Both the position numbers and the translations under genes were made by a program. Positions 8,151-14,110 of a stretch of DNA of 64,000 nucleotides are shown here, in pieces (position 1 is the stretch's first letter; each line of letters starts with the position of its first letter). Below the pieces are notes generated by a model. The model did not search any database. It was not told the origin of the DNA and saw nothing but the letters and a program-made list of their open reading frames with translations. Where the stretch lies: positions 269,139-333,138 of the forward strand of contig JAUNUY010000001.1 in NCBI GenBank assembly GCA_030537935.1, written 5' to 3'. This DNA is from Eubacteriales bacterium. GTDB lineage: Bacteria; Bacillota; Clostridia; Lachnospirales; Lachnospiraceae.

Positions 8151-8177
8151 GAGAACTGCGGTCATACCGCAGTTCTC
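8151..8177 (-). terminator. Terminator after the adhesin gene
   Basis: A perfect 12-base-pair hairpin (GAGAACTGCGGT / ACCGCAGTTCTC, 3-base loop) follows the adhesin stop at 8197. The better T run lies on the plus-strand side, but the only gene ending here is the leftward adhesin. The leftward U-tract is poor. Confidence 0.6.
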
Positions 8178-8196: not shown

Positions 8197-11100
8197 CTAT
8201 CGGCGTTTACGTTTCACCAACCGGCAACTCAAGCCGCAAGTAATGTAGACCGGCAACATACACCACATGATATCGTAACCCGCCGATGTTGCCGTCTTCG
8301 GTAGAGGACGCCTCGGCGGTGCCGTAAACTTCACTGTCTGGCCGACGTCATTGATGTCCTTATGCTCGGCAATCACGTTGCCGTCCGCATCCAGAAGTTC
8401 TTCAAAAACTACTACTTCCTTACCCTCAAGGCCCGTTGCATCGAAAGTGAATATCATATCCACGTTGCCATCTTTTGATTCTGCGATAAACCGCTTTTCA
8501 CTGCGGACTTCTTCGCCATTAATCAAAAGCGGTTTTTCCGTCGCCTTGTCCATCAATACACCACGCATCGTATACGGATCGCCGACAATCAAATCCGTAT
8601 AGCGGACCGTATCCACGATGGTTGCCGTACCCGTGGCAAACCCCGCCTTCTTTTTATCCGCCGTCGTGGCCGTCGTGCGGATTTCAGGCGCCGTAATCCG
8701 TACCGTCTGCTCCACATCCGTCAAATCTGCATGAGCGGCAATCTCGATTCCGTTATGATATATGGACTCGAATACAACCACCTCCGTACCCGCCAAAGCG
8801 GATGCGTCAAAGGTAAACGGCATCTCGACAGAACCGTCGTTCTTCTCCGCTCTGAAGGTCACCTCACTGCGGACTTCTTCGCCATTGGACAGAAGGGGTT
8901 TCCCCGTCTCCTTGTTCATTAAGACGCCCTTGACGGTATATTCCTCACCGATGACGAGCATCAGATAGCGTACGATGTCGATGATGGTCACCTTTTTTGT
9001 AGCATGAACTTCCTTCTTGTCATTGGCTGTAGCTGTCGTTTGAATCGTCGGTACAGGTGCATCCTTCATGGCAATCTCCTGTACTTCTTCCGAATCAATG
9101 GTGAATGTAATATCTTTGGATGGCAGATACCCTTCCGGCACCTTCGTCTCCCGGAGGATGTAAGTCTTACCGACTTCAAGCTTCTCAATCCGATGCGGCG
9201 TACCGTCCGTCACCCACTCCTCTATGAGATTTTCATCCGCATCCAGCAGCTGTAAAGTCGCGCCGACCACCGGTTCACCCGTTACGGCATCAATCTTTAA
9301 GATATCCAGTTTCTTACTCGCGTTGTTAAAGTCAACCTTTAACACGCTGTCATCTCCGATAATCTTTAGATCCATCGGGTTCTTCGACACGACATAACCT
9401 TTCGGTGCCGTAATCTCCGTCAACCGATAAGTACCAAGCTCCAAATCCTTAAAGGACAGGACCCCGTCCTCACCGACCGTCCATTCATTCACGCCATCTT
9501 TATTTAATACTGGAATGACAATCCCGTCATCCGTCACACCTTCCAGGCGGAACACGGCACCCGAAAGGGACTCTTTCGTATCCACGTCCACCTTGGTAAT
9601 CTCAAGCTCACCCCGCTTATAGTCATTGACCATGGGTGTCTCAAGTTGATGGACCACATCTTCCGTCTTCAAATCCGAATACGTTGCCGTGATATTAAAA
9701 TTCTCTTCATTCAGGCGATACATCGTATCCGTCTCCAGCTCCTTAAAGTAGTATGCACCCTGCGGGATATCGCTGACGGTAATGATACCGTTTTCATCCG
9801 GTCGAACCGCACCCACAAGGGTGTCCGCCGGTGCACCTAATATATTTTCCGCCGTATAAAGACCGAATACCACCTGATTTAATGCACCCTCTTCATGGTG
9901 GAAGACGGGTGTTTCCATCATCTCCTTCGTCATCTGAAGATGCAGCTGTTGTCGCTTATTCACGATGGGTGCCGTCTCTTTCAAGTCGATGGCCACTTCC
10001 TGTGCCTGCGGCGTGAAGGTGACGGTTCGAACCGTCTCATCCGCCAAATAACCCGTCGGTGCCGATACTTCGACCAACGCATACGTGCCGAGCGGAATGT
10101 CCGTCACCTGTGCCGGTGCATCCGCTGTCGTGGTGATTGTCTTGACCACGTCCCCCGCATGATACAACAGGGTCTGATTATCCTGGGCGATGATATCTTC
10201 CTTTGCCCGCAGTTCAAATACGGCACCCGGGAGATAACCTTCTTGCCATGTCGGCCGTTGTACCGAATAGCCGTTGGCTTCTTCCGTTACCCAACCGTTA
10301 AAGAGTTCCCCTCGTTTATTGAGGATGAGCGAACCCTTCTGGGGCGTATTGCTCACTTCTTCTTTCAAGAGCGTCTCATCCCGATCACCCAATGTAATGG
10401 TGACGGTCAAATCCTCTGCCAAGTCCTTACGATCTGCCGGCACGGTAAAGGGGACTTCAAAGTCCTTCGGCAGGTAATAACCTTCCGGTGCCCGGACCTC
10501 TTTGAGGATATAGTTCCCCGCCTTGAGGCGTTCAAAGGTATCCGTGTAGCCGTCGGCATTGATGATGAACTGATCCGTCAGCTCCGTCGTGCCGTCCCGT
10601 CTTATCATGCTGACCTTCTCCCCGTTTTCACGGTAGATTTCAAAGACGGCATCTTTGTTTAAGACATTCTTGCCCGTCTCCTTGTCCGTCTTGATAATAC
10701 GCAGTCGCATCCATTCAGGCTGATTCTCCAGCACGTAATGGTAGTTATGGTAGTTTTCATCAATCGTTACGTAGAAATCATCCACCCGTTTGACATCGCC
10801 CGGTGTATTGACCTGTGTCACCCGGTACTTGCCGTAAGGGAGCCAATGTGAGGTCGTCATGCCCTCATCATTGGTGGTCATACTGCCCACCTTTTGATCC
10901 GCCTTATCATAGATGTCAAAGGTGATGCCGGCTTCGCCTTCTCTCGGACCGCCCGTGGTGGCGTCATCTTCCGTATCGCCCGTATTATCCTTATGCTTCG
11001 TCAGGGAGATACGACCCATGATGGGTGCATCTGCAAAGACACCCGTACCGTCTTGTGCCACGGTGTTATCCTTCACCTGCGGCAAGCTGAGGCTGCCCTG

Positions 11101-12486
11101 CTCATCAAGGGGCAGGTAGGCATTCATGATGTTCTCAAGTTTCTTTTGAGCCGCATTGCCTGCCTCTACAAGGGCTTCTCCGTTGGTGGTAACCTTTATA
11201 TCCGTCGAGATACCTCCTGCGGGATACGGGTTCATCGGTTGACCTGTCACCTGAATCGGATTCGGATTGAGTGTATAGCCCGTCGGGGCCTTCGTCTCGA
11301 CAATCTCGTAGGTACCGCAGGGCAGTTTCGGCATGGTGGCATTGCCCTGCTCATCCGTTGTCATTTGACCGATGACCGTTCCCGGTGCATACTGTTTGTC
11401 TTTCGGAAGACCCTTGGTCAGGATTTCCTTGACCTTCACGTCAAAGACTGCACCCGCCAGGCTTGCTTCCCCGGAAGGTGTCTGTCCGCCGTAGATGTCC
11501 TGCTTGTTGACCTTAAGGTCAAAGTATTGGGGCTTATTCACCTTGAAGCGGATGGGCCGAATATCGGGATCAATATCCCCTCCGGCAATGATATCCTGCT
11601 GATTCGGATGACTGTAAAGAATTGGGGCCTGTCCACCCGTGTCATTAGCCACAATATTTCTCTTAATCTTCGTCATCTGAGACAGATAGACAGTAAACTC
11701 TTCCGGACTCTCTTCCGTCGGTGTCACTTTGAGCTTCATCGCCCCGCCGTTGATTACGTTGTCCCAGTGGTAACGGCCGGTGTTTGAATGAACGTCCTCA
11801 TTCTCTGCCCATGACGCATGCACGCCGGGAACATCCTCATAGACGTATTTATAGGCGTTACCGACATTTTCATCATACAAATACAGACTCTCACCCAGGT
11901 TGATTTCGTAGGGTGTGTCGTTATCCACGTAATCGGGCCACTTATCCCACATGTCAATCAGATACTCTGCCGAATCCATGTATCCATTATCCTTGTTCTC
12001 ATCCCAGAAATGAGCTACCTTATCACCGTCTCCCGTATAACGCCAGATGACCAGCTGGGCCAAAGAATAGTCGTGACCGGTTCGTTTATCCACCGCCGGT
12101 TCACTGCTCGCATAATTGCCGCCGTAATACTTTCTGGCATCAAAGAGAATCCACTTGGCCATGGCAATTTTTCGCCCCTGTAGCGAATGCGGATCAAAGT
12201 AACCGGTTGTATAACCGCTGCCCGTTCCAAGAATCTTATGCGGTTCAATACAAAAGGCGGGGACACCGTCCGCATAGATAACGAACATGTTCTCGCCCGT
12301 ACTGTAGCTGTAGCCCGCCGTCACGTTCGGATGGTAGGCCGTTAAGGTCGGGACGCCGTTGATGTGTCCCGGTTTGAGTGCCGTTAAGGTAATCGCATGA
12401 ACATCTGCAGTATTAAACAAGAGTGCCGGCACGATAAGCACCAGTGCCAGTACAAACGACAATATTTTTTTCAGTTTCCGTTTCAT
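8197..12486 (-). CDS. Sortase-anchored surface adhesin: thioester, CnaB/SpaA and VaFE-repeat domains
   Basis: A 1429-residue wall-anchored protein. Residues 1-31 are a signal peptide (KRKLKK, then a long hydrophobic core ending VHA). A thioester domain follows: Cys79 in AFCIEP and Gln144 in SLAQLVIW fit the Cys-Gln pair that forms an internal thioester for covalent host attachment. About seven CnaB/SpaA-type domains span about 330-1140, recognisable by repeating ends such as ETKAPTGY, EVRAPEGYY, EVSAPTGY, EITAPKGY and ETKVPEGY; their Lys-Asn isopeptide bonds give rigidity. Two VaFE repeats (about 1143-1386) precede LPKTA (about 1395), a hydrophobic segment and KRKRR. The sorting motif has Ala in place of Gly. 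AAGGAGG lies 4 bases before the ATG. No sortase gene is in the window. Confidence 0.92.
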   Translation of the reverse strand: MKRKLKKILSFVLALVLIVPALLFNTADVHAITLTALKPGHINGVPTLTAYHPNVTAGYSYSTGENMFVIYADGVPAFCIEPHKILGTGSGYTTGYFDPHSLQGRKIAMAKWILFDARKYYGGNYASSEPAVDKRTGHDYSLAQLVIWRYTGDGDKVAHFWDENKDNGYMDSAEYLIDMWDKWPDYVDNDTPYEINLGESLYLYDENVGNAYKYVYEDVPGVHASWAENEDVHSNTGRYHWDNVINGGAMKLKVTPTEESPEEFTVYLSQMTKIKRNIVANDTGGQAPILYSHPNQQDIIAGGDIDPDIRPIRFKVNKPQYFDLKVNKQDIYGGQTPSGEASLAGAVFDVKVKEILTKGLPKDKQYAPGTVIGQMTTDEQGNATMPKLPCGTYEIVETKAPTGYTLNPNPIQVTGQPMNPYPAGGISTDIKVTTNGEALVEAGNAAQKKLENIMNAYLPLDEQGSLSLPQVKDNTVAQDGTGVFADAPIMGRISLTKHKDNTGDTEDDATTGGPREGEAGITFDIYDKADQKVGSMTTNDEGMTTSHWLPYGKYRVTQVNTPGDVKRVDDFYVTIDENYHNYHYVLENQPEWMRLRIIKTDKETGKNVLNKDAVFEIYRENGEKVSMIRRDGTTELTDQFIINADGYTDTFERLKAGNYILKEVRAPEGYYLPKDFEVPFTVPADRKDLAEDLTVTITLGDRDETLLKEEVSNTPQKGSLILNKRGELFNGWVTEEANGYSVQRPTWQEGYLPGAVFELRAKEDIIAQDNQTLLYHAGDVVKTITTTADAPAQVTDIPLGTYALVEVSAPTGYLADETVRTVTFTPQAQEVAIDLKETAPIVNKRQQLHLQMTKEMMETPVFHHEEGALNQVVFGLYTAENILGAPADTLVGAVRPDENGIITVSDIPQGAYYFKELETDTMYRLNEENFNITATYSDLKTEDVVHQLETPMVNDYKRGELEITKVDVDTKESLSGAVFRLEGVTDDGIVIPVLNKDGVNEWTVGEDGVLSFKDLELGTYRLTEITAPKGYVVSKNPMDLKIIGDDSVLKVDFNNASKKLDILKIDAVTGEPVVGATLQLLDADENLIEEWVTDGTPHRIEKLEVGKTYILRETKVPEGYLPSKDITFTIDSEEVQEIAMKDAPVPTIQTTATANDKKEVHATKKVTIIDIVRYLMLVIGEEYTVKGVLMNKETGKPLLSNGEEVRSEVTFRAEKNDGSVEMPFTFDASALAGTEVVVFESIYHNGIEIAAHADLTDVEQTVRITAPEIRTTATTADKKKAGFATGTATIVDTVRYTDLIVGDPYTMRGVLMDKATEKPLLINGEEVRSEKRFIAESKDGNVDMIFTFDATGLEGKEVVVFEELLDADGNVIAEHKDINDVGQTVKFTAPPRRPLPKTATSAGYDIMWCMLPVYITCGLSCRLVKRKRR
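8329..9060 (-). repeat. Two tandem 122-codon VaFE repeats inside the adhesin
   Basis: Two copies of a 366-base unit lie end to end, about 8695-9060 and 8329-8694. Both contain the shared DNA string TCACTGCGGACTTCTTCGCC on the plus strand (starting at 8498 and 8864, 366 bases apart). The encoded copies share IRTTAT-type starts, NGEEVRSE and EVVVFE. This stretch is a likely site of repeat-number variation between strains. Confidence 0.8.
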
Positions 12487-12563
12487 AATTCCTCCTTCTC
12501 ATACTTATCCTTCCCATCGCCAACCGTATCAGCCGGTGAACGGATGGTTGTCCGTCGCTTCAT
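12483..12563 (-). CDS. 26-residue upstream reading frame coupled to the adhesin gene
   Basis: A short frame starting MKRRTTIRSP with a strong ribosome-binding site (AAAGGAG, 5 bases before the ATG) ends in TGA overlapping the adhesin ATG (ATGA). The encoded peptide is hydrophilic and highly charged (ending KDKYEKEEL), with no signal or membrane segment. It probably acts as a translated leader: ribosomes ending on it would reinitiate on the adhesin. It begins about 20 bases after a strong terminator. Whether the peptide itself has a role is unknown. Confidence 0.5.
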   Translation of the reverse strand: MKRRTTIRSPADTVGDGKDKYEKEEL

Positions 12564-12583
12564 GATGTCTCCTTTCCGGACAT

Positions 12584-12619
12584 AAAAAAAGAGAAGCACC
12601 GAAGTCCCTCTCTCTTTTT
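12584..12619 (-). terminator. Strong terminator or attenuator ahead of the adhesin
   Basis: On the minus strand AAAAAGAGAGAGGGAC and GTGCTTCTCTTTTTTT pair around a TTCG tetraloop, with one mismatch, and the stem runs into seven T. It ends only about 8 bases before the ribosome-binding site of the leader frame. That leaves no room for a promoter between terminator and gene. Confidence 0.85.
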
Positions 12620-13034
12620 GCTATTTGGAATTTTCCATAAACTGCTATCCATTTAATGTTTGTTCTATTATTTCGTACGGGTATAATAGCCCGTGATGTC
12701 ACCATTAATCTCTTTGGTGGTTTGAACCCGTAAACCAGCAGACCCATAGCATTTCGTACTATGTTCATAATGATTTTTCGTCAATAAGGTTCGGTTTTTT
12801 ATGTCGCATACGGATAGTCCCCGCTTGACGTCAGTGCACCGTATGGTGACACACCCATCGCCAAACAATACCCGCTCCGACCACTATTCAAATATCAAGG
12901 TGCCCATTCATCATGACACGAAATGTCTCGAAAACCCATTCCCGCTTATTGTCCATTACAACAAGATGTCACGACTCCTCCGCCAATATACCGTTTCACT
13001 ACCGAAACATACCCCGACCGGGCACCTAAAATCC
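12620..13034. other. Intergenic region between the adhesin and aroF
   Basis: Divergent spacer. The adhesin promoter must lie here, upstream of its terminator, but no minus-strand pair of hexamers is convincing; TTGACG near 12778 lacks a good -10. A small hairpin (ACGGG ... CCCGT) sits near 12677. A weak minus-strand frame (12668-12868) needs a TTG start and has no ribosome-binding site, so I do not call it a gene. Confidence 0.4.
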
Positions 13035-13063
13035 TTTACTTTCTCACTTTAAAGTGATATATT
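13035..13063 (+). promoter_or_regulatory. aroF promoter
   Basis: TTTACT and TATATT with a 17-base spacer lie upstream of the DAHP synthase gene. The spacer is almost filled by the palindrome listed next. Confidence 0.75.
13044..13057 (+). promoter_or_regulatory. Palindromic operator inside the aroF promoter
   Basis: TCACTTTAAAGTGA is a perfect 14-base palindrome exactly between the -35 and -10 boxes. A dimeric repressor bound here would block RNA polymerase, which fits feedback control of the first step in aromatic amino acid synthesis. The regulator is not identified in this window. Confidence 0.6.
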
Positions 13064-13081
13064 AATGCAAGGAGGTTTATT

Positions 13082-14110
13082 ATGCAATTTAATTTCTTAA
13101 ATAAATTACCGACCCCTTTGGAAATTAAACAACAATTCCCCGTCTCCTTAGATTTGAAAAAGATTAAGGAAGCCAGGGATCGGGAAATAGAAGCCATATT
13201 TACCGGTACGGATGACCGCTTTCTCGTTGTCATCGGCCCATGCTCGGCCCACGATCGGGACGCCGTATTGTCCTATGTCGACAAACTGGCCGCACTTCAG
13301 GAACGCGTAAAAGATCGCGTTCTCATTATTCCGCGCATCTATACGAATAAACCGAGAACAACGGGTGCCGGCTACAAAGGTCTGTTGCACCAACCGGATC
13401 CGCTCCGTGAACCGGATATGCTCTCCGGCATCAAGGCTATCCGACGATTGCATATCGATGTTCTGCGTGAAACGGGCATGTCTACGGCGGACGAGATGCT
13501 CTATCCGGAAAATCACCGCTATTTGAATGACGTACTGGGCTACGTTGCCGTCGGTGCGAGAAGTGTCGAGAACCAGTTTCATCGACTCACCGCCAGCGGT
13601 TTGGGTATCCCCTGCGGTATGAAGAACCCGACATCCGGCGACTTCAGCGTTATGATCAATGCCATACGGGCGGCCCATGACAAACACACCTTTATTTATC
13701 GCGGTTGGGAAGTATCCACACCCGGTAATCCGTTAACCCATGCCATCTTACGCGGTTACGTAGATGCACGCGGTGACTCCTATCCGAATTACCACTATGA
13801 AGATTTGAATCGTCTTCATAAGGCTTACAACGCATCCGACCTGGCCAATGCCTGCGTCATCGTTGACACCAATCACGCCAATTCCGGCAAACGATACAAA
13901 GAACAAGTTCGGATTACGAAGGAACTAATGTACAGTCGGAAAATCAACCCCGATTTGCGTGCCTTCGTACGTGGTATCATGGTGGAAAGTTTTCTCGAAG
14001 AAGGTACGCAAAAGGCGGAAGAAGGTATTTTCGGTAAATCCATTACCGATCCCTGTCTGGGCTGGCCGGATACGGAGGCCCTCATTATGCATGTGGCGGA
14101 AAACGTATGA
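13082..14110 (+). CDS. aroF: 3-deoxy-7-phosphoheptulonate synthase, class I (AroG/F type)
   Basis: Condenses phosphoenolpyruvate and erythrose 4-phosphate to DAHP, the first step of the shikimate pathway. Conserved segments are intact: GPCSAHD with the metal-binding Cys, RTTGAGYKG, GARSVENQ, KNPTSGD, VDTNHANSGK, MVESFLEEG and SITDPCLGW. The 342-residue length matches the E. coli AroG class, with no chorismate mutase fusion. AAGGAGG lies 6 bases before the ATG. It overlaps rlmD by 4 bases (ATGA), so the two are co-translated although their functions differ. The aroF/aroG/aroH type cannot be decided from sequence. Confidence 0.95.
   Translation: MQFNFLNKLPTPLEIKQQFPVSLDLKKIKEARDREIEAIFTGTDDRFLVVIGPCSAHDRDAVLSYVDKLAALQERVKDRVLIIPRIYTNKPRTTGAGYKGLLHQPDPLREPDMLSGIKAIRRLHIDVLRETGMSTADEMLYPENHRYLNDVLGYVAVGARSVENQFHRLTASGLGIPCGMKNPTSGDFSVMINAIRAAHDKHTFIYRGWEVSTPGNPLTHAILRGYVDARGDSYPNYHYEDLNRLHKAYNASDLANACVIVDTNHANSGKRYKEQVRITKELMYSRKINPDLRAFVRGIMVESFLEEGTQKAEEGIFGKSITDPCLGWPDTEALIMHVAENV

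Follow-up and report, generated by a model that had tools for sequence, protein, structure and literature searches.

An intrinsic terminator and an overlapping mini-ORF directly ahead of a thioester-type adhesin gene in a Lachnospiraceae bacterium

Within the stretch of Lachnospiraceae DNA analysed here (64,000 nucleotides, hereafter the window), a gene for a surface adhesin is preceded on its own strand by an intrinsic terminator that follows no gene, and by a 26-codon reading frame (mini-ORF) whose stop codon overlaps the adhesin start codon. Leader attenuation with readthrough and a coupled mini-ORF is the best and most economical model of this arrangement, although it is held tentatively, at somewhat less than an even chance, and a regulated switch at the adhesin leader is not supported. 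No regulation of the adhesin has been described so far in the source bacterium. If readthrough sets its level, control over a costly protein for covalent attachment would be exerted once transcription has begun.

Organization of the adhesin leader

All elements of the layout lie on the minus strand and follow each other 5′ to 3′ as a 595-nt divergent gap, the terminator, 8 nt, a Shine-Dalgarno (SD) sequence, the mini-ORF and the adhesin gene, with the plus-strand gene for DAHP synthase (start at 13082) as divergent neighbour. The layout, both SD sequences and the hairpin behind the adhesin gene were read from the sequence, while the adhesin was assigned by domain searches. The features are:

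12620-13081, minus strand: section of the gap expected to hold the origin of the RNA that ends at the terminator, without a convincing coding frame or a strong sigma-70 promoter
12683-12688, minus strand: candidate mirrored −10 element (TATTAT) opposite a plus-strand TATAAT in an inverted repeat, with a weak score of 4.3 and speculative
12619-12584, minus strand: intrinsic terminator with a 15-bp stem (one G-G mismatch, two G-U pairs), a cUUCGg tetraloop and U7
12575-12569, minus strand: SD of the mini-ORF, AAAGGAG
12563-12483, minus strand: mini-ORF of 26 codons, MKRRTTIRSPADTVGDGKDKYEKEEL, ATG at 12563-12561 and TGA at 12485-12483
12491-12497, minus strand: SD of the adhesin, AAGGAGG, within the last codons of the mini-ORF
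8197-12486, minus strand: adhesin gene, 1429 aa, ATG at 12486-12484
8151-8177, minus strand: hairpin directly after the adhesin stop, GAGAACTGCGG/CCGCAGTTCTC, with a weak T tail

An earlier note had described a terminator with a TTCG loop and seven T, about 8 bases ahead of the ribosome-binding site of a 26-codon frame whose stop overlaps the adhesin ATG. This description is borne out in each part: the hairpin with its U7 folds below its shuffles in energy, the SD AAAGGAG begins 8 nt past the U-tract, and the TGA of the mini-ORF overlaps the ATG of the adhesin. From the U-tract to the adhesin ATG the distance is 97 nt.

The adhesin

The protein comprises a signal peptide, a thioester domain (TED), seven SpaA/CnaB stretches, two TQ/VaFE ester-bond domains and an LPKTA-type sortase signal. 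In the stalk the SpaA and TQ domains and also the VaFE repeat were matched, while LPKTA and the hydrophobic tail were recognised by eye in the translated sequence. With a thioester domain, an isopeptide/ester stalk and a sortase signal all found, the adhesin fits the TED/TIE type. The thioester domain on which the proposal of a covalent attachment protein rests is present, if just above the Pfam cut-off (PF08341, 22.1 bits against a cut-off of 22; 23.9 bits in another search). It resembles the TIE adhesins pLS20 p34 and SfbI, which in the available sections of their descriptions (PMC8092201, PMC4450167) have an N-terminal TED, a CnaB/SpaA stalk, ester-bond domains and a sortase signal, but differs from them in that its TED match is marginal. 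The same sections do not describe leader control of the present kind for TIE adhesins. The neighbours of the gene are housekeeping genes (nth and DAHP synthase). The hairpin at 8177-8151 follows right after the adhesin stop, so that the adhesin is probably transcribed alone, as a single-gene mRNA.

The terminator

The stem AAAAAGAGAGAGGGAC-UUCG-GUGCUUCUCUUUUUUU has a z of about −3 in its context, with 2 of 200 shuffles equally stable. Its core is present at all leader lengths folded (seven assumed 5′ ends, three assumed 3′ ends), with a core pair probability of about 1.0. The energy is −15.7 kcal/mol on the minus strand vs −6.2 kcal/mol on the plus strand, owing to the two G-U pairs and the cUUCGg tetraloop, which marks the adhesin strand as the one on which the hairpin is made to work. 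Limits of at least 4 for the U score and of −12 or lower for the energy return 87 intergenic terminators vs 28 within genes in 701 kb of the genome, and the adhesin-leader terminator falls within both limits. By these properties the hairpin has the form of a functional terminator on the strand of the adhesin.

The gap upstream contains no gene for this terminator to end. When a decayed gene was sought there, the best tblastn E was not below 0.07 and no convincing coding signal appeared. A search of the gap and leader with the Rfam 15 covariance models gave zero matches, for riboswitches as for other Rfam RNAs. For a tRNA-like stretch near 12725, ARAGORN reports zero tRNAs in the window.

The mini-ORF

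Of the genome's genes, 172 have 120 nt or more of free space upstream. A stop overlaps the start codon in 98 of these, and in only one of the 98, the adhesin gene, is the overlapping stop that of an SD-led frame of at least 15 codons. The codon score of the mini-ORF is 8.27, where gene pieces average 6.19 and open intergenic frames −2.53, with 2% of the latter reaching a score as high. The purine-rich SD codons near the end of the mini-ORF possibly inflate its value somewhat. Together the counts and codon use support an unusual, gene-like and real-looking coupled frame, and its translation is predicted. As in other translationally coupled leader ORFs of the ATGA type, a short SD-led frame has a stop that overlaps the next start. 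The adhesin differs from these in its additional, strong SD, because of which coupling may only boost its expression. An 11-nt piece of the mini-ORF (12513-12523; TTGGCGATGGG as read on the minus strand) recurs unchanged in the gap (12854-12864), as a direct repeat.

Promoters in the divergent gap

The earlier note had seen no room for a promoter behind the terminator and had concluded that the adhesin must be made by readthrough, antitermination or translation-linked attenuation. The 97 nt from the U-tract to the adhesin ATG contain no sigma-70-like promoter (best score 2.8), but could accommodate a promoter, provided that the mini-ORF is absent from the mRNA. Readthrough is therefore the simplest route, given a strand-specific terminator, no upstream gene, no sigma-70-like site and a coupled mini-ORF, but it is not compulsory, since the 97 nt could hold an unrecognised promoter. 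On the minus strand upstream of the terminator, the best sigma-70 scores (7.6 near 13064, 7.0 and 6.6) are at background level: against references of 250 nt, they stay under 7.7, the 10th percentile for divergent gaps (median 11.7), and close to the median of coding interiors (6.2). The plus strand of the gap carries promoters that score 11.8 (DAHP synthase) and 10.8 (TATAAT at 12682, in the inverted repeat).

The DAHP synthase promoter (13035-13063, plus strand) reads TTTACT-17-TATATT with an extended TG, and a perfect 14-bp palindrome, TCACTTTAAAGTGA (13044-13057), lies between its hexamers as a likely operator. The inverted repeat ACGGG-TATAATAG-CCCGT (12677-12694) combines a perfect plus-strand −10 element with a mirrored TATTAT on the minus strand, and could be a bidirectional promoter, some 400 nt ahead of the DAHP synthase gene. 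Bidirectional promoters of the mirrored type have been reported (PMC10268837), and by analogy with them the minus-strand TATTAT might, speculatively, serve as the adhesin promoter.

Evidence bearing on a regulated switch

The further proposal that the leader acts as a switch found no support, as an antiterminator fares no better than shuffles, the leader structure is weak and the Rfam search came back empty. The best duplex that the 436 nt upstream form with the terminator is equalled by 146 of 300 shuffles, and an antiterminator through long-range pairing was rejected, its duplex energy being no lower than in the shuffles. The longest perfect complement, 11 nt of GACATAAAAAA at 12805-12795, is equalled in 1 of 200 shuffles. 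It pairs with the U-tract and ATGTC and leaves the stem core untouched. The structure of the leader (z mostly 0 to −2.4) is alike on both strands. In the genome, which is 85% complete, one NusG-family gene was found and no LoaP, nor was there a match to the CAT_RBD (LicT-type) antiterminator or, in a search run without a positive control, to the ANTAR antiterminator.

The genus of the source organism is represented by one genome. A pattern search of the genome contigs and viral contigs yielded no adhesin relatives, and the terminator core is absent from the viral contigs. Among 41 genomes searched, the leader DNA occurs in its own genome alone, and the best DAHP synthase relative reaches 64%.

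Terminators near start codons in the genome and the family

A terminator ending at most 60 nt from a start codon is found at 21 of 488 genes of this genome (about 4%) and at 37 of 780 control genes of related genomes, so that this layout alone is not rare. Most of these terminators come after a same-strand gene. The orphans among them that could be named with Rfam belong to a lysine riboswitch (its terminator, in this genome, ends 20 nt ahead of its gene), an L10 leader, 6S RNA, SRP RNA and tRNA, and by analogy the adhesin terminator would most likely either belong to a leader attenuator or end a small RNA. The terminator of the 6S RNA gene (L141:9848-10072) ends 21 nt ahead of the start of the next gene.

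Thioester adhesins were surveyed in 150 genomes of the same family, which gave 30 genes in 12 sequence groups. Of the 30, 16 (4 of the 12 groups) have a terminator no more than 60 nt from the start, vs about 4.5% of other genes. Twenty longer adhesin loci have the same pattern, and other genes in these loci display it far less often (about 10 of 130). The terminators of the family adhesins usually follow a same-strand gene, unlike that of the window adhesin. ParA/ParB-like genes upstream suggest that several or many of these adhesins are on mobile elements. Since the sequence groups are few, the pattern across genera is a lead, not proof. In other genera, terminators lie 23-50 nt before SpaA/thioester adhesin starts at loci L174, L181, L172, L176, L177, L178 and L179, and likewise at L182, L186, L187, L188, L224, L227 and L243, so close that a promoter would have hardly any space or none.

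Models for adhesin expression

In the attenuation model, a minus-strand transcript would begin at about 13060-12620 within the divergent gap, and the majority of polymerases would halt at the terminator at 12619-12584. In the mRNA of those that read through, the mini-ORF would be the first frame, and ribosomes ending it would halt on the adhesin start codon, beside the strong SD of the adhesin, so that translation of the two would be coupled. The outcome would be a low or conditional amount of a costly 4.3-kb surface protein. The model starts from the form and strand of the terminator, the overlap, the unusual gene-like mini-ORF and the empty upstream region, and adds to them a promoter, an efficiency of termination, the coupling itself and a readthrough that may be regulated or leaky. 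It agrees with the attenuators among the Rfam-named orphan terminators of this genome (lysine riboswitch and L10 leader), where a terminator in the 5′ leader likewise precedes the first SD by a few tens of bases, with no upstream gene. Unlike these, the adhesin leader has no recognised sensor and no alternative fold above chance, and its short ORF comes after the terminator rather than before it. Against attenuation also count the background-level promoter scores (best 7.6), the missing antiterminator and Rfam match, the occurrence of the leader in no other genome searched, and the relatives' terminators, which mostly trail a same-strand gene.

Alternatively, and with a clearly lower probability, the terminator would end a separate small RNA or a divergent/antisense transcript, and the adhesin would be served by a separate promoter within the 97 nt, perhaps one for an alternative sigma factor or an activator, with transcription starting inside the so-called mini-ORF. 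The space suffices for a promoter, other sigma factors are compatible with a missing housekeeping promoter, and the terminators of 6S RNA (21 nt before the next gene), SRP RNA and tRNA are similarly placed. But the 97 nt contain no sigma-70-like site, known small RNAs (Rfam) give no match, and chance would have to account for a mini-ORF that is gene-like and has a good SD (2% of frames; 1 of 98 genes). Rather unlikely is an inheritance of the layout from a conjugative-type element (such elements commonly carry adhesins of this type), with the terminator as an insulator against stray transcription that is crossed by processive antitermination. A terminator of Tn916 serves as an insulator together with the antiterminator canT (PMC11658703), and pLS20-type operons combine many terminators with conAn antitermination (PMC8955417), pLS20 carrying a thioester adhesin (PMC8092201). 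In both systems terminators stand directly before genes, as they do at 16 of 30 family thioester adhesins, which often seem to reside on such elements and in several cases lie near ParA/ParB-like genes. The window adhesin, by contrast, is a single gene on the chromosome, with housekeeping genes around it (nth, DAHP synthase) and outside any element, with a leader dissimilar to those of its relatives and no antitermination protein found (a single NusG-family gene and no LoaP in the 85% complete genome). Moreover, pLS20 was examined for the same layout and has only a weak hairpin, not a strong terminator, ahead of its own adhesin gene. The terminator would least probably be incidental, either left over from an upstream gene since lost or harmlessly leaky, with the mini-ORF as a chance frame. 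That terminators stand right before an SD at about 4% of genes (21/488), and that an overlapping stop follows trivially from an ATGA start (98/172), agrees with this. Yet no remains of a decayed gene can be recognised in the upstream DNA, both the hairpin and its U-tract are complete, and the combination of terminator and mini-ORF is rare.

Beyond the attenuation model for the window adhesin, thioester adhesins of the family might commonly be run by termination and readthrough, with the present leader as a stand-alone chromosomal form whose coupled mini-ORF senses the state of the cell; this extension is just as improbable as an incidental layout. Terminators crowding thioester-adhesin starts across genera would link the expression of these adhesins to the way in which conjugative elements use termination and antitermination. 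A motif common to a few loci behind the terminator (a T-run with ATGTCC) was discarded, as its hits in the 150 family genomes did not exceed those of a reversed control. At 254-277 on the minus strand of the window, another terminator is immediately followed by ATGTCC, with an SD and a short frame behind it; the DNA there is AT-rich and has no obvious gene.
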